A stretch of DNA of 64,000 nucleotides from NCBI GenBank assembly GCA_014381555.1, contig JACNLO010000049.1, positions 1-64,000 on the forward strand. Direction: 5' to 3'. The notes below the pieces were generated by a model that did no database searches, was not told the origin of the DNA, and worked only from the letters and a program-made list of their open reading frames with translations. The translations under genes were made by a program, and so were the position numbers. This document shows positions 8,728 through 16,915 of this stretch, one piece after another (position 1 is the first letter of the stretch; every line of letters starts with the position of its first letter). This DNA is from Planctomycetota bacterium. GTDB taxonomy: Bacteria > Planctomycetota > Phycisphaerae > Phycisphaerales > SM1A02.

Positions 8728-9156
8728 TTACTCAATTGATTTTTGTAACAGTGTGTCAACCTGTGAGAAATAGCGGGTTGCTTCATCGAGTATTCTCGCA
8801 GGGACTAATTGTGTTTCGGGATCATCAAAAGTCACTGTTGGTACCTCTTGTGATTTTAAACGAATCACAAATAGCCATTCTCGATGGTCAATTTGTTCTC
8901 GTTGACGGGGCAACTTTAGAGAGCGTGATAATTTCCTGCGGATAACTATTCTTCCAAACTGTGGGTTTGCATCCACATCATTTTCTATAACAATCCATCT
9001 TTTTCGAGGATCGTCTGAAAAATAATCTGGCGCATTTGCCGCAGCGACCATTGCAGTCCAAACAAAATCTTTTGTTTCATTTGGCCACCTCTTTGTAGGC
9101 ACCGAACACCCTGCAAGAATGAGAACAAATGATGTTAAGACCACACATCGAATCAT
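8728..9156 (-). CDS. Hypothetical lipoprotein
   Basis: A 142-residue secreted protein. The N-terminus is a lipoprotein signal (hydrophobic SFVLILAGCS, lipobox LAGC with Cys at position 17), so it should be lipid-anchored. The mature part has no cysteine pairs and no family I recognise. It is charged, with DDPRKRW and FGRIVIRRKLSR segments. The ATG overlaps the yebC stop by 4 bp, so its translation is coupled, and the sensor phosphatase follows. A role in feeding the Cache sensor is conceivable but unsupported. Confidence 0.8.
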   Translation of the reverse strand: MIRCVVLTSFVLILAGCSVPTKRWPNETKDFVWTAMVAAANAPDYFSDDPRKRWIVIENDVDANPQFGRIVIRRKLSRSLKLPRQREQIDHREWLFVIRLKSQEVPTVTFDDPETQLVPARILDEATRYFSQVDTLLQKSIE

Positions 9157-9897: not shown

Positions 9898-11343
9898 TTA
9901 TTTCACTCCATTAATTGGTACTTCAAACCCAAGTTGTGGTTCACTACCCTCTTGCACAGCAGAAAGTTTTTCTTTTAATCGGCGAGATACCCCACCTAAC
10001 TCATAATCATACAGTGCCTCAGGTGTAGCAACAGAAATTCCCCACACTGTATACGCCATACTCGCATATCCTTCTAATATTCTTTGGCGATGGTCTGCAG
10101 AGTTCAAAATCATAGAAGCGGTCTCCCAAGCCCTAACAGCGTTTTCTTTTTGCTCAGCTATCCAATACGCATCACCTAAATGATCGTACGTCTCAGCACT
10201 AGGTTCCGGAGAAAGTTTAATCGCTTCCGTTAGGAGTGATATTGACCGATCTGCTTCTCCTAACAACACAAACATCCAGCCAACTGTGTCCAATACGTGT
10301 GCAGAGTCTGGGTCTAATTTCAAAACCTGAGAACAAAGCTTCTGTACTTCCCTTGTAGGCCCCTCTTGTTCAAGTTTTATCCACGCCAGATTATTTAGCA
10401 CTAATGTGTTTGTTGGATTTATCTCCAATGATGCGGTATAAAGACGTATTGGAGCGTTTTTATTCTTTCCAACGATTGACATTGATTGTGCTGCAACCGA
10501 CAGAGCCTCAGAGAGTGGCACCGGTTCATCCCATCGAGGTGCAAGTGAAATAGTTCTATTGAGAGCAATCTCTTCGTACACTTTCAAGGTAGTTGATCCA
10601 TCTCCTCCAGCAGTTGCTTCTAGAACTGGAAGAACAATTAAAAGAGTGGCAAGCTCTTTTTGGTGGAGTTCGTAGATTGTTGCCATAACTACTAACTGCA
10701 CTGCCATGTCAGCTGCGTTTAAGTCAACCAATTGCTGCATTACTCCTAACCAAACCGGAGAGGTTGCATCTGGAATTAATTTATGTAATGCACTTTCAAT
10801 AATAGAGTCCACGGGTTCACTAAGTAAATCTGTAATACTTTGATCTGATTCAAAAACCGATTTTAACCCAGCAATCCTTAGCACTGCCTCGATGGAACTC
10901 GCTTCTTGCGTTAGCCAATGTTGGGAAAGTAGCCGTCTCCCCTTTTCCACTTCGCCCATTCTTGCAGCATCCAAACCAAGAATTAAAAGTGCATCCTTGT
11001 GCAAAGGATTCCTCGAAATAACTTCGTTCCAAGCGACTATTGCCGCATCTTCCCTGCCAGTAGCAGCAAGAGAAATTGCGAGAGAAGCCCAAGGTGCTGG
11101 CGATAACTCATCAATAACCGCTGCACGTCGAAAATGTGGAATTGCCAACAGGTGTTGATCTTGTAAAGCTAATTGGCGACCAATAATATATTCTCTTGCC
11201 GCCCTTCTTACTGTTGGGGAAGAAGGAGATTCGGGAAGTTTTCCGACAACTGCTTCGAGTTGCTTTTGAAGAAGATGGTCTTCTGCACGTACCGCACATG
11301 TCGCGAATAATAGAATCAGCAAGGATAGCCAAATTCGTTTCAC
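9898..11343 (-). CDS. Secreted TPR-repeat protein
   Basis: A 481-residue protein with a cleavable signal peptide (MKRIWLSLLILLFATCAVRA, likely cut after ~20). TPR-type helical repeats are visible around residues 50-130 (LLAIPHFRRAAVIDELSPAP, AIVAWNEVISRNPLHKDAL) and 300-420 (TASLEINPTNTLVLNNLAWI, ISLLTEAIKLSPEPSAETY). TPR arrays are protein-binding scaffolds; the partner is unknown. It overlaps the preceding HhH-GPD-like gene by 4 bp and ends 1 bp before yebC. An envelope protein inside an information-processing operon is somewhat unusual. Confidence 0.88.
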   Translation of the reverse strand: MKRIWLSLLILLFATCAVRAEDHLLQKQLEAVVGKLPESPSSPTVRRAAREYIIGRQLALQDQHLLAIPHFRRAAVIDELSPAPWASLAISLAATGREDAAIVAWNEVISRNPLHKDALLILGLDAARMGEVEKGRRLLSQHWLTQEASSIEAVLRIAGLKSVFESDQSITDLLSEPVDSIIESALHKLIPDATSPVWLGVMQQLVDLNAADMAVQLVVMATIYELHQKELATLLIVLPVLEATAGGDGSTTLKVYEEIALNRTISLAPRWDEPVPLSEALSVAAQSMSIVGKNKNAPIRLYTASLEINPTNTLVLNNLAWIKLEQEGPTREVQKLCSQVLKLDPDSAHVLDTVGWMFVLLGEADRSISLLTEAIKLSPEPSAETYDHLGDAYWIAEQKENAVRAWETASMILNSADHRQRILEGYASMAYTVWGISVATPEALYDYELGGVSRRLKEKLSAVQEGSEPQLGFEVPINGVK

Positions 11344-12194
11344 TTCTTAGTTTTTGCCTTCTTCTTTGTAACCTTCTTTTTAGACACCTTCTTTTTTGTA
11401 GCAGCTTTTTTCGAAGACTTCTTTTTAGTCGCTTTTTTCTTCGCCACTGTTTTCTTCGCCACTGTTTTTTTTGCAACCTTCTTTTTTACCGAAGTTTTTT
11501 TAACGTCCTTCTTTTTAGGGGCTTTCTTCTCCACTGGCTTCTTTAATGCCTTGCTCTTTGTTTTTTTCTTCTTGGACGAAGCAGTTTGTTTTCGAACTGG
11601 CTGGGTCTCTACCCAAGCATGTAACGAGGCGTGTGCTTCAATAACATCATCTGCTTTCACCTGTCTGCTCAGCCAAGACGAAGCGTCTACAACACATGCT
11701 GTTTCGTGAACCAAATCATTTGTAATCATTATGTCTAGTGTTCGGTCATCAACAGGCATTGCTGCGACATCAAAACAAATTGATATAACCCTGTTACAAA
11801 CAAATGGTGTAATCCCGTTAAGCGTTTCAAAGTACTCTCGGATATCGCGTTTTCCAGCACCTTCTAAACTGTCAACATGAACACCGTGTTCACGTTTATA
11901 AATTGCATTTAAAACAGTTTTTAACCGTTTCGCCCTCTCATTTGCCTGAGGGTAATTAACTCCAATCAACTCAATGGTTTCATAAACATTGTTCATGCGC
12001 AAATCGTTTAAATCTACAGATGCGTCAATTAATTTTTTGCTTGCAGTGGCAGCTTGTTTCGATGTGGCGTTCCAAAGCAGTTGGGAATAAATAACTTCAC
12101 CAATAACTCCGTGTTCACTCGTAACAACTTCCACTTTTGGCAACTTACGGCGAAACGATTTAAACTTTTTTGCAAATTCTGTTGCGTTTTTCAC
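11340..12194 (-). CDS. HhH-GPD (endonuclease III-like) fold protein with Lys-rich tail
   Basis: A 284-residue protein in two parts. Residues ~30-185 align by eye with the endonuclease III core: helices VIGEVIYSQLLWNATSKQA and IELIGVNYPQANERAKRL, a degenerate hairpin LNGITPFVCNRV, and VDDRT where the enzyme has VDTHI. The catalytic Lys position is Phe131, while the Asp (D149) is kept, and there is no C-terminal 4Fe-4S cysteine cluster. Residues ~204-284 are mostly Lys with Ala, Thr and Val, like a histone H1 tail. It is therefore probably a nucleic-acid-binding protein rather than a glycosylase-lyase. It abuts rbfA and overlaps the TPR gene by 4 bp. The fold assignment is mine, without a profile search. 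Confidence 0.7.
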   Translation of the reverse strand: MKNATEFAKKFKSFRRKLPKVEVVTSEHGVIGEVIYSQLLWNATSKQAATASKKLIDASVDLNDLRMNNVYETIELIGVNYPQANERAKRLKTVLNAIYKREHGVHVDSLEGAGKRDIREYFETLNGITPFVCNRVISICFDVAAMPVDDRTLDIMITNDLVHETACVVDASSWLSRQVKADDVIEAHASLHAWVETQPVRKQTASSKKKKTKSKALKKPVEKKAPKKKDVKKTSVKKKVAKKTVAKKTVAKKKATKKKSSKKAATKKKVSKKKVTKKKAKTKK

Positions 12195-12575
12195 TCAATT
12201 ATCCTTCATCTTTTTTCTATTCTCTTTTTTTTCGTCTTCTTGCTTTGCTTCAGCAATACTCGCAAGAACTTCTTGCTGACGTAATAGTTGTTGGTCTGTT
12301 TTAAAAGAGAATTTTGGCATTCTTCTAAACTTGACTTTGTCTGCAACTTGCCTGCGAATCCACCTAGATGCAGCATTTAGACCGTGCATAGAAATTTCCT
12401 CGTGTTTACGAGGAATAATGGTACAAAATAAAGTTGCATTGGCTAAATCTGCACTTACATCAACACGAGTCACTGTAACAATTCCTTGCACGCGGGGATC
12501 TGCGAGACCACGAGACAAAATGTCTTGGGTTGCTCTCTGCAGAGTTGATGCAACTTGGTCTGTACGCTGAGTCAT
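12195..12575 (-). CDS. rbfA: Ribosome-binding factor A
   Basis: A 126-residue RbfA, a KH-fold assembly factor for the 30S subunit. The family pattern is clear: QRATQDILSRGLADPRVQG, VTVTRVDVSADLANATLF and NAASRWIRRQVADKVKFRRM, then PKFSFKTD. A charged C-terminal tail (EDEKKENRKK) follows. It lies 4 bp after infB, and its stop is immediately followed by the next gene's ATG. This is the usual nusA-infB-rbfA order. Confidence 0.96.
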   Translation of the reverse strand: MTQRTDQVASTLQRATQDILSRGLADPRVQGIVTVTRVDVSADLANATLFCTIIPRKHEEISMHGLNAASRWIRRQVADKVKFRRMPKFSFKTDQQLLRQQEVLASIAEAKQEDEKKENRKKMKDN

Positions 12576-12579
12576 AGTG

Positions 12580-15138
12580 CTACTTAAGCGTTCGCTTCAC
12601 CTCTAAGGATTTATAACACTCGATGACATCACCGACTTTAATATCGTTATATCCATCTATGTTCATACCGCATTCTTGACCAGATTTAACTTCTTTCGCA
12701 TCATCTTTGAAACGTTTCAATTGATCAAGTCGCCTGTCAGATTCAACAACTATGCCCTCGCGAGTTACACGAATTTGTTGATGACGTTCAATTGTTCCAT
12801 CTGTCACATAACACCCGGCAATCATGCCTGTTTTTGAAATCTTAAACACATCTCGAACTTCAGCATGACCAAGAACTTCAAGTTTAATTTCTGGATCAAG
12901 GAGCCCTTCAAGCGCTTTCGTAAGGTCATCTATAAGATCGTAAATAACATCGTAATAACGTATCTCAACACCTTTTTGCTCAGCAAGCCTTCTTGATTTT
13001 GACGAACTCGTTACATTAAACCCAGCAATAATTCCACCACAAGCTTCTGCCAAGTTAACATCAGATTCGTTCACTCCACCAACCCCACAATGTTTGATAA
13101 CAATCGTAGCCTCGTCAGTTCCTACTTTCCCAATGGTAGATTTCAGTGTTTCGATTGAACCTTGAACATCTCCCTTTATTATGACGGGCAATTCACGGAT
13201 ATCTGCTGTTTTCATCTGGTCAAAGATGTTGTCGAGGGTTATTGATTCTCTCGATAGAGCTACTTCACGCTCTTGTGCGACACGCTCTTTCGATGCTGAT
13301 TCTGCTGCTTTTAATGATTTCACAACATAAAATTTGTCACCAGCATCAGGAACTTCGCTCAATCCAAGAAGTGAAAGTGGTGTTGATGGAGTTGCTTGAG
13401 CAATCTGATTCCCACGATCATCCATCAATGCTCGAATACGGCCATAGCCACGACCTGCTACTATAAAATCGCCCTTCTTCAAGCACCCTTCCAAAACAAG
13501 AATGTTTGCAACAGGCCCACGACCATCTGCAATATGGGCTTCGATCACAAAACCTTCCGCCGCACCACTGAAGTCTGCCTTGAGTTCAAGTAACTCAGCT
13601 TGATAATCTAAAATATCAAGCAAGTCTTGGATACCTGTGTTTTCAATTGCACTTGTTCGTATAACTTCAGTCGAGCCACCCCAATCCACCGGGTTCAAAT
13701 CGTGTTCAGCTAATTGACCAAGAATCCGCTGAATATTTTCTTCAGTAGCATTTTGCTTATCTATTTTATTCAAAGCAACCACGATTGGAACTCCAGCGCT
13801 TTTCGCATGATTAATCGATTCAATTGTTTGCGGCATCACTCCGTCATCTGCTGCAACAACCAAGATAACAATATCTGTAACCTTAGCTCCTCTTGCCCGC
13901 ATTTCTGTAAATGCTTCATGTCCTGGGGTATCAATGAAAGTAATAAGTCGTTCAACATCGCCGGCCTTCACAGGTACTTGGAAGGTGCTTGTCGCTTGAG
14001 TAATTCCACCAGCTTCACCTTCTGCAACATTTGCTGAACGAATTCTGTCTAGGAGTGATGTCTTGCCATGATCAACATGCCCAAGAATTGTCACAACTGG
14101 AGACCTGTGTTGTTCGTTTTCTCGTTCTCGTTCGCTGAAGGAATCAACAATTTTTTCTTCGGCACTCTTTTCTTCAGTTACTTCAAGTTCAATTCCCCAA
14201 CCCATCATCATTTCTACTGCTTGCGTTGGGTCGATGTTATCGTTTACCGTTGCTTCCACTTCAGCAAGTAGTAATTTTTTCAAAATTTCGTTTGCCTTTA
14301 CTCCAGTTGCAGATGAAAGCTTTTTAATGGAAATTGGTTCTGAAATTAAAACTTTACCACCAGTTTGTTTTAATGTTTTTGCTCTTTCAGCTGGTTTGTC
14401 TGTACGCTTTTGACTATCTCGACGAGCTTGTCTGAAAAAACCACCACTTCGTCGAAGTCGGTTCTCTCGCTCGAGTAAATCTTGCTTTCTCCAGTTTGCG
14501 TTGCCACGATCCTGGGTGGGAGTTTGTCCTTTAGATCCTCGTTCGCCCTGCCGTGAACCTAATTGTGTTGTTGCTCTGCGCTTATTTCTACGCGATCCAC
14601 GACCTGAATCTTGTTGGGGAGGTGGCATCTGCTGTGGAACACCTGCACCTGCACCACCACCACCGCGAGGAGGAGAAGGTTGCTGTCGCCTTTGAGGTCT
14701 GGGTTTTGGCTCTGGCTCAGGTTGTTCAATCCTTATCACCCGAGGACCTGCCATCTTCGCTTTTTCTGGTGAATCCATCTTGCGACCAGCTGGTTGAACC
14801 GATTGCTCTGTTTCACTTTCTTTGCTGGATGAACCTTCCGTTTTTTTTGCTTTTTTAGACGTGGCTTTCGCCTTGGTCTTCTTTTTGGTTTTCTTTTTTG
14901 CCCTCGATTTGGCTTTTGAAACGTTTACTTTTTCAGTGGTTTCAACAGCAGTTGATGAAGTGCCTTCTTCACTGAACCATTCAACAATTGTCGCTTCAAG
15001 ACCAGCAGAGATAGCGGACATGTGACCTGTAATATCAGGAATACCCTCGCTCGTACATTTCTCGATGATGTCTTTCGATCCAACACCTAAATTTTTGGCT
15101 ACATGATGTACCCTTGTTTTCACTGCTTTTTTAGCCAC
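12580..15138 (-). CDS. infB: Translation initiation factor IF-2
   Basis: An 852-residue IF-2, the GTPase that brings initiator tRNA to the 30S subunit. The N-terminus has an IF2_N motif ([20 protein letters not shown]), then a long Lys-, Pro- and Gly-rich linker ([30 protein letters not shown]) and a second IF2_N near 270. The G domain begins near residue 350 with [14 protein letters not shown], followed by [15 protein letters not shown] and NKID. Domains II-IV follow and end in [17 protein letters not shown]. The ORF can be read from a TTG at 15153, but the GTG at 15138 has GGAGA 6 nt upstream and is preferred. Confidence 0.96.
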
Positions 15139-15165
15139 GTGTAATCTCCGCAATCAAGTTAATGA

Positions 15166-16545
15166 TTATTCGTTACTTTCTTCTGTTTCTGTTGATGCTG
15201 CTACTTCAGCGTTATCTAATTCTTCAGGAACTTCATCATCAGCAGACATATCGAGAATTGAGTCCGCCGCTGCTTCAATTTTCTCATCAACCTCTGTATC
15301 AAGAACTGCAGATGCTGCTGCTTCTTCTTCTGCACGCACTGCTTCTTCTGCAAGTTTTGCTTGCTCTTGTTCAATTGTCACTTCTTTAGAACGAGTGATT
15401 GATTTATCAATGCATCGATCTGCAATTTGTTTGGAGAATTCAAGGTCTTCCTCAAGCACGTTTCTGCCAATTTCTTCGACATCAAAAATACTAATGATGC
15501 CCATTGCAGCCATCCGATCCAACATCTCTTCTGTCACGCCTTCAATTGGTTTCAATGCATCCCATAGTATTTCAAGGCCTTTCTGATATTCTTCCGGAGT
15601 CAAAATGTCAATATCCCAGCCAGTCAACCTCGCTGCTAAACGAACATTTTGCCCCCGACGCCCAATTGCAAGAGATAGTTGATCATCGCGAACAATAATT
15701 GTTGCTCTGCCAAGTTCGAAGCATAAACTTACTTCATCGACTTCAGCAGGCTTCAACGCGTTGGAAATTAATACTTGGCTCGATTCATTCCATCGAACGA
15801 TGTCTATTTTTTCGCCGCCAAGTTCTTCGACAATATTTCGTATTCGACTACCTCGAACACCAACACATGCGCCTACAGGATCAACTTTAGAGTCATTTGA
15901 CGTCACAGCAATTTTAGTTCTAAAGCCCGGCTCTCTGGACATTGCGTGTATTTCAATTACATGCTCTTGTACCTCGGGAACTTCTGCCTCAAACAAACGG
16001 CGAATAAAGTCTGGATGGCTTCGAGACAATACAATTTTTACTTGGCTACCAGTATCTCGAACATCAAGAATAAAACAACGAACACGATCACCTGGTCTAA
16101 ATTGCTCACCAGGAATTTGCTCAGACCGTGGCATAAACCCTTCAACACGTCCACCCTTATCGAGTTGAATAATCAGTGAACCGCCTTCATATCGGCTACA
16201 AACACCGGTAGTTAATTCGCCAGCTTTATCAATGTACTCATCAAAAATACCTGTTCGTTCGTCTTCTCTGAACCTTTGAATCATGACCTGCTTTGCTGTT
16301 TGAGCAGGTATTCGCCCAAGTTCTTCAAGAGGAATTTCCACTGCACCGCCATCTAGGTGCCGCCAAATTCTAATTTCACCAGTCATCAAGTCCATGTTGC
16401 ACGAAAACTCCTCTGTATCTAATGAGTTGAAGTGTTTGCGTGCTGCACTAACCATTGCCTGTTCAAGGTCTTCAATAATTGCAGTTTTATCAATCTTTCG
16501 CTGCTTGGCGATGACGTCGATAAGTTCTATTGTGTCTCTGTTCAT
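15166..16545 (-). CDS. nusA: Transcription termination/antitermination factor NusA
   Basis: A 459-residue NusA that binds RNA polymerase and nascent RNA to control pausing and termination. The order is an N-terminal polymerase-binding domain (LEQAMVSAARKHF), an S1 domain ~135-200, and two KH domains (DPVGACVGVRGSRIRNIVEE, LSLAIGRRGQNVRLAARLTG). A single helix-hairpin-helix follows near 340-380, then an acidic tail of ~80 residues. It starts at ATG 16545 with AGGACAGG upstream. No rimP precedes it, unlike many bacteria. It heads the minus-strand run and lies just after a hairpin-rich leader and terminator, which suggests attenuation control. Confidence 0.96.
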   Translation of the reverse strand: MNRDTIELIDVIAKQRKIDKTAIIEDLEQAMVSAARKHFNSLDTEEFSCNMDLMTGEIRIWRHLDGGAVEIPLEELGRIPAQTAKQVMIQRFREDERTGIFDEYIDKAGELTTGVCSRYEGGSLIIQLDKGGRVEGFMPRSEQIPGEQFRPGDRVRCFILDVRDTGSQVKIVLSRSHPDFIRRLFEAEVPEVQEHVIEIHAMSREPGFRTKIAVTSNDSKVDPVGACVGVRGSRIRNIVEELGGEKIDIVRWNESSQVLISNALKPAEVDEVSLCFELGRATIIVRDDQLSLAIGRRGQNVRLAARLTGWDIDILTPEEYQKGLEILWDALKPIEGVTEEMLDRMAAMGIISIFDVEEIGRNVLEEDLEFSKQIADRCIDKSITRSKEVTIEQEQAKLAEEAVRAEEEAAASAVLDTEVDEKIEAAADSILDMSADDEVPEELDNAEVAASTETEESNE

Positions 16546-16591
16546 TGGAATTACCTGTCCTAAGTTGTTTGAATGTTGGGTTGTCTATCAA

Positions 16592-16620
16592 TTAAAAAAC
16601 GGGTCGCGGTGCGAACCCGT
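16592..16620 (-). terminator. Terminator/attenuator hairpin before nusA
   Basis: On the minus strand: ACGGGT, inner stem CGC/GCG, ACCCGT, then a run of T. It lies 47 bp upstream of the nusA ATG. No convincing promoter fits between it and nusA, so it most likely acts as an attenuator inside the nusA leader. It could instead terminate an independent small RNA. Confidence 0.75.
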
Positions 16621-16841
16621 GGCACAACCAGAAGGTTGCGTGTGCAAAATGCACGACTATGATTTAGGGGAAAACCTAAATCACTACTGAACCTCCATAG
16701 AGATGCGAACATCCACTAATGAATGGCTCAGAGCCACGGGATGACTGCGATTAGCAGTCATAGCTAGAAAAAAGTTGTAAGGATTCACTGTGAATCATTA
16801 CTACACTCCTAATAAATACCTGTGCTGTCTACGCTGACAGC
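16593..16841 (-). promoter_or_regulatory. Hairpin-rich leader upstream of nusA
   Basis: The 370-bp gap 16546-16915 holds at least seven short stem-loops. Perfect stems include 16824-16841 (6 bp), 16782-16796 (6 bp), 16741-16761 (8 bp), 16724-16736 (4 bp), 16661-16682 (8 bp), 16642-16654 (5 bp) and 16625-16638 (5 bp). The array ends in a terminator hairpin (16599-16620) with a T-run on the minus strand. That orientation marks it as RNA transcribed toward nusA, either an attenuated 5' leader or a separate small RNA. In Bacillus subtilis, NusA autoregulates through a NusA-dependent terminator upstream of its own operon, which makes the same logic plausible here. I do not recognise 6S RNA, tmRNA, RNase P RNA, SRP RNA or a known riboswitch. 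Confidence 0.6.
16751..16798 (-). CDS. Candidate 15-residue leader peptide
   Basis: A short reading frame in the nusA leader: ATG at 16798, 15 codons (MIHSESLQLFSSYDC), TAA at 16751-16753. AGGAG lies 7 nt before the ATG, a better ribosome-binding site than many genes here have. The start codon touches a 6-bp hairpin and the stop lies in the loop of an 8-bp hairpin, so ribosome position could switch RNA folding. No run of one amino acid stands out. Expression is unproven. Confidence 0.35.
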   Translation of the reverse strand: MIHSESLQLFSSYDC

Positions 16842-16915
16842 GGGAAACGGTACATGGTATCCCACCTTCACAAAAACGCAACTCCAACCACTACTTGCAC
16901 GTACTATATATACCT

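Follow-up and report, generated by a model that had tools for sequence, protein, structure and literature searches.

What controls transcription of nusA in a planctomycete in which this gene is preceded by a dense array of predicted RNA hairpins? Among core bacterial operons, nusA-infB is nearly universal, and the mechanism of its feedback is understood in very few bacteria. In Bacillus subtilis, NusA is autoregulated by attenuation in the leader of its own operon, where it stimulates termination (PMC12288461). The rimP-leader motif places a premature terminator in front of nusA-infB, and feedback by NusA was proposed for it (Naville and Gautheret 2010, PMC2965389), and in some Gammaproteobacteria it also includes a putative antiterminator (PMC2965389).

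The window analyzed here, a 64,000-nucleotide stretch of a Phycisphaerae genome, carries on its minus strand an eight-gene run, already recognized in a first-pass annotation, that begins with nusA (15166..16545), infB, which encodes IF-2 (12580..15153), and rbfA (12195..12575), and continues with genes for a lysine-rich protein, a TPR protein, YebC, a small protein and a HAMP-SpoIIE phosphatase. Two of the products are without a Pfam family (window 11340-12194 and 8728-9156, minus strand): one has a long lysine-rich tail, and one is small and lipoprotein-like. RimP (PF02576) was not detected in 13 genomes of the order (the window genome and 12 relatives), with the same search positive in 10 of 14 controls; NusA is kept despite this non-detection, and RbfA is seen in the window.

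Results

A structured, conserved leader precedes nusA

The relatives of the window's NusA come from metagenome-assembled genomes of Phycisphaerae/Phycisphaerales, in agreement with the first-pass placement in the planctomycetes. For comparison, we located nusA in 59 of 61 related genomes and sampled the upstream DNA of 13 genus members, 42 genera of the family, 16 genera of the order's other families and 20 genomes of the class's other orders. The minus strand from 16870 to 16590 folds at -107.4 kcal/mol, versus -71.4 +/- 4.6 for dinucleotide shuffles (z -7.8, 0/200), and the array occurs upstream of nusA, with compensatory changes, in 13/13 genus genomes. The hairpin array and terminator that the first-pass annotation had described directly before nusA are thus real. 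It had listed seven short stem-loops, two of them with perfect 8-bp stems; we count eight in addition to the terminator, one of them a small GGCTC/GAGCC alternative.

These elements form one leader, extending on the minus strand from ~16850 to the nusA start codon at 16545. Upstream lie a putative -35 element, TTGCGT (16876..16881, minus strand), which is kept as TTGC[GT]T in 13/13 genus members, and a putative -10 element, TACCAT (16854..16859, minus strand), which in the genus alignment reads TACCCT in most relatives; their spacing is 16-17, and transcription is predicted to start at ~16847. Because this promoter-like pair is kept in 13/13 genus genomes, transcription should enter the array. 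No such pair was seen within the 48 nt separating the terminator's U tract from the nusA ATG, in agreement with the earlier description of a terminator lying close to nusA with no evident promoter in between.

Several other origins for the array were ruled out. The terminator is not the 3' end of another gene, as the upstream neighbor (DsbD-like, plus strand) is divergent, nor is it a bidirectional terminator, as both neighbors diverge from the region. It is also not a multi-copy element: the core of the stop hairpin has a single copy in the genome, at nusA only. Searches against Rfam returned no match to the leader at gathering or permissive thresholds, the only hits being tRNA and a chance match. 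In 15 relatives there was no match at E<=1, and at E<=10 the leader of the window gave only a chance match to another family.

Since the inner hairpins cannot be aligned, RNAalifold gave a poor global fold of the whole alignment; this structure was dropped, and helices were instead scored individually by name. The 5' hairpin P0 (16824..16841, minus strand) has double-sided changes within the genus in 5 of its 6 pairs. Scored jointly, P0, the start hairpin, the stop hairpin and P1 have 94% of cells paired, compared with 89.6% after column shuffling and 29-49% when slid, and a covariation of 0.221 versus 0.144, with 0/500 shuffles as high. Within the genus, P0 accounts for most of the double-sided changes, and there is very little variation in P1 or the stop hairpin; such near-invariance is consistent with the predicted structure rather than independent support for it.

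The leader contains a short ORF under selection

Within the leader we found a short ORF, MIHSESLQLFSSYDC, running from ATG to TAA (16751..16798, minus strand) and led by a Shine-Dalgarno (SD) sequence, AGGAG (16806..16810, minus strand), that is invariant in 13/13 genus members. A hairpin containing the start codon (16777..16801, minus strand) has 98% of cells paired and includes one pair with CG<->UA covariation. Invariant in the genus are AGGAG, a start codon 6-7 nt downstream of it, and a length of 14-15 codons ending in TGC TAA; in L008/L009, the ORF has an indel of exactly 3 nt, i.e. one codon.

In other genera of the family, the leader ORF recurs with quite different sequences, for example MVSFLHLWSTRHDG, MGEFHQTWLNTHDG, MTTIVYPVSRHDA, MRNMSQQHVSCHVE and MSSSVNVFVLRHEG. 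SD-led ORFs with the required tail were found in 42 of 126 family leaders, against 0.4 in dinucleotide shuffles, and the distance from the SD-start to the CATGN5-stop is in frame in 38 cases and out of frame in 1. When the count required only a GGAG, a start codon (ATG/GTG) and a stop, leaving tail and hairpin free, lengths peaked sharply at 14 codons (13/42 genera versus 0.58 expected). Outside the order, ORFs of 12-15 codons occur in ~6/20 genomes versus 1, an excess that is suggestive only. A recognizable leader ORF is absent in about half of the family's genera, though a terminator is retained in most. The peptides differ between genera, and those compared share no run of regulatory codons. 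Together, these patterns show that the SD, the frame and the length of the ORF are under selection, and the ORF is presumably translated. We are confident that the region is an attenuator leader that has been conserved and whose ORF is under selection.

The stop codon of the leader ORF lies in a hairpin loop

The ORF's stop codon, TAA, sits in the loop of an 8-bp hairpin (16741..16761, minus strand), the stop hairpin, which is found in the genus and in 22 genera. In most of these 22, three of which belong to a second family of the order, the stop codon is in or beside the loop, and the stems vary (GACTGC/GCAGTC, GACGC/GCGTC, TGGAG/CTCCA, GGAGCG/CGCTTC). When only the 14 nt past the stop were shuffled, the hairpin had p <= 0.2 in 20/22 genera, with a Fisher combined p of 8e-14. 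Codon -3 of the ORF is CAT or TAT in 46/51 leaders and never CAC, and so the feature kept at this codon is RNA rather than peptide; a conserved His at peptide position -3 was accordingly rejected as peptide conservation in favor of the RNA stem (CATG...CATG).

P1 competes with the terminator within the genus

Immediately 3' of the stop hairpin, 10 nt after the stop codon, begins CCCGTGGC (16733..16740, minus strand), the 5' strand of a putative antiterminator helix, P1 (93% of cells paired). Its partner is GCCACGGG (16616..16623, minus strand); in the genus, the terminator starts with the last five bases of this 3' strand. The intrinsic terminator (hairpin 16620-16599; with the U tract, 16594..16620, minus strand) ends ~48 nt before the nusA ATG. 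Because P1 uses the terminator 5' arm, antiterminator and terminator are mutually exclusive. P1 comprises 7-8 bp in 11/13 genus members, and most of its pairs are in the minimum free energy fold of 11/13. When P1 was blocked, or a ribosome-sized stretch at the stop was masked, folding with these positions masked yielded the terminator pairs.

P1 has no double-sided change in the genus and does not form, or forms only weakly, in L004 and L010; at +10 past the stop, it is significant in few genera only, mainly the own genus. The helix is well supported in the genus only. Terminators precede nusA in most of the sampled order and class. Most other genera keep it, often with a GGRYCACG 5' arm whose partner varies; in some genera other upstream segments are complementary to the arm, but not uniformly. 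The terminator stem of the rimP-leader is GGGc...gCCC. In the genus the stem reads ACGGG...CCCGT, and in the class's other orders (L264-L282), where U-tract terminators also precede nusA, several have GTGGG...CCCAC stems that resemble the rimP-leader motif. Separately, a hairpin of the form RTGAYCTGA...ACAGRTC, with a conserved CUGA/ACAG inner edge, lies shortly before the nusA terminator in L006, L008, L009, L015, L020-L023 and L029, and could be a protein site.

The narrow distribution of P1 bears on an alternative in which there is no switching between P1 and the terminator, and the leader ORF mainly keeps Rho off a long leader or serves re-initiation or coupling. In its favor, significance for P1 beside the stop is largely confined to the genus, and the ORF is more widespread. 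The stop codon lying in a hairpin loop in 22 genera, and the exact overlap of P1 with the terminator in the genus, point instead to RNA folding, and we consider the alternative improbable.

P1 encloses a variable set of hairpins

P1 encloses the inner hairpins (16624..16730, minus strand): P2 (16730-16688), P3 (16684-16659, 8 perfect bp within 10), P4 (16654-16642) and P5 (16639-16624). This region is hairpin-rich in all members, and its sequence is not kept: members of a single genus differ in how many hairpins they have and in the size and sequence of these, and only ~8 of 107 positions are invariant (positions 123 to 230 of the alignment's first sequence). As they lack sequence conservation and differ in number, the inner hairpins most likely serve to compact the P1 loop, which would explain the dense array. 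A multibranch closed by P1 over a terminator does look like a riboswitch, and a ligand- or protein-binding aptamer (a riboswitch or ribosomal-protein leader) might be proposed. A ligand aptamer is unlikely because the inner hairpins are not conserved in sequence; we found no conserved aptamer core in this region, no Rfam match even at E 1-10, and no second genomic copy of the stop-hairpin core away from nusA. We regard an aptamer of either kind as highly improbable, the least likely of the alternatives considered.

A boxC-like element lies between the terminator and nusA

In many leaders, the motif CAACTSAAYAR, mostly in the form GACAACTCAACA or GACAACTGAATAG, occurs in the interval from the terminator to the start codon. 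With at most one mismatch, it is found in 23/58 genera versus 0.4 expected, and at 16/55 nusA genes (29%) versus 1/543 other genes; similar elements extend to other orders of the class. The window genome has a degenerate copy, CAACCCAACAT, with 2 mismatches (CA-rich stretch CAACCCAACATTCAAACAAC, 16564..16583, minus strand). In the nusA 5' UTR of L020, a boxC-like unit, CAACTCAA(C)A, is repeated head to tail without a break over ~70-80 nt, a short distance upstream of the start codon.

The element is nearly identical to a sequence that many of these organisms carry in their rRNA leaders, where boxA is directly followed by CAAGTGAACAG or a near variant. In rRNA leaders of this order (L232-L261), ~200-350 nt upstream of 16S, boxA (GCTCTTTGA) abuts CAAGTGAACAG, a likely boxC/NusA site. 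The nusA-leader site differs in its position, after the terminator and before the start codon, and by eye no boxA was seen beside it. The element is also like the M. tuberculosis boxC, a comparison made by way of the rRNA leaders of these organisms. The M. tuberculosis NusA S1-KH1-KH2 fragment binds boxC-like RNA (PMC6614801), and the NusA of the window aligns with the crystallized M. tuberculosis KH fragment 2ASB/2ATW. By analogy, NusA may bind the boxC-like site of its own leader.

Involvement of NusA might suggest a simpler arrangement: a plain NusA-dependent attenuator, in which polymerase-bound NusA stimulates the terminator and the leader ORF and P1 are accessory. The terminator before nusA is indeed the most widely shared part of the leader, the boxC-like site suggests that NusA is involved, and nusA of B. 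subtilis is regulated in this way (PMC12288461). Left unexplained are the conserved SD, frame, 14-codon length and stop-codon hairpin, as well as the retention, in the genus alignment, of those bases of P1 that lie beyond the terminator (GCC of GCCACGGG). We therefore consider this arrangement unlikely, although it is the strongest of the competing accounts.

Discussion

On balance, we lean towards reading the ~300-nt array, conserved among marine planctomycete relatives, as the 5' leader on the mRNA of the nusA-infB-rbfA operon, where it would attenuate transcription in a translation-coupled manner and be subject to feedback by NusA. In this model, when the leader ORF is untranslated, the stop hairpin would form beside P1, and P1 would close over the compact inner hairpins and hold the terminator 5' arm, so that polymerase reads through. 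A ribosome that starts on the leader ORF and proceeds to the stop codon would open the stop hairpin and encroach on the 5' strand of P1, located from 10 nt past the stop; with P1 hindered, the terminator would fold and transcription stop early. IF-2, by raising initiation on the leader, would lower its own synthesis: infB is the second gene, and the predicted outcome is therefore negative feedback. NusA could apply a further brake: it may promote termination, and it may bind the boxC-like site immediately upstream of the nusA start codon. The direction of this switch was deduced from the order of emergence and the overlap of the helices, and we judge the chances that it runs as described to be even. 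Counting against the model, a ribosome sitting at the leader stop would extend no further than the initial bases of P1. Because the peptide sequence is not conserved between genera, the signal is likely ribosome position and not an amino acid or arrest peptide; with no codon run either, sensing of initiation capacity is likelier than sensing of amino acids.

How does this leader relate to known systems? Like the B. subtilis nusA attenuator, it has a premature intrinsic terminator in the leader of the same gene; a leader ORF, a stop hairpin and the P1 antiterminator set it apart. With the rimP-leader it shares a premature terminator before nusA-infB. Here, however, nusA comes first, rimP was not detected in the 13 genomes of the order and there is no Rfam match, and the rimP-leader as described is without a leader ORF, without long conserved structure and usually without a visible antiterminator. 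Its Rfam entry is RF01770. The first-pass claim that the RNA resembles no known class was too strong, since the rimP-leader family covers terminators before the same operon (PMC2965389); a conserved regulatory leader with a premature terminator before nusA in Phycisphaerae, outside every Rfam family, is nonetheless what we find. Likewise, the proposed hairpin array with a NusA-dependent terminator stands as to array and terminator and was incomplete as a picture, as the leader also has an ORF, a stop-codon hairpin, an antiterminator and a boxC-like site.

Leader-peptide attenuators of the trp, ilv, vmlR and topAI types similarly place an SD-led short ORF before alternative antiterminator and terminator folds, and the present leader has such an ORF, presumably translated, and exclusive folds in the genus (11/13). 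It differs in having no conserved peptide and, among the leader peptides compared, no codon run for a sensed amino acid; in the stop codon in a hairpin loop; in the regulated operon, which encodes transcription and translation factors; and in the predicted sign, which is opposite to that of amino-acid starvation attenuators. Relative to nusA and rimP-leader attenuators, the leader ORF and the stop-codon hairpin would appear to be new. In the open papers searched, neither a leader ORF nor a stop-codon hairpin is described for nusA, although such a search cannot prove that none has been reported.

More tentatively, the leader might be a gauge used throughout Phycisphaerae, in which a leader ORF of 13-15 codons with a hairpin-caged stop reads initiation capacity, IF-2 and RbfA, a factor in 30S maturation, exert feedback on the transcription of their own genes, and NusA binds directly to a boxC like that of rRNA antitermination. 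The leader ORF is a conserved short ORF of the kind missed by annotation. If the leader does read translation and carries an element resembling a NusA site, the levels of transcription, initiation and ribosome-maturation factors would be linked in one RNA.
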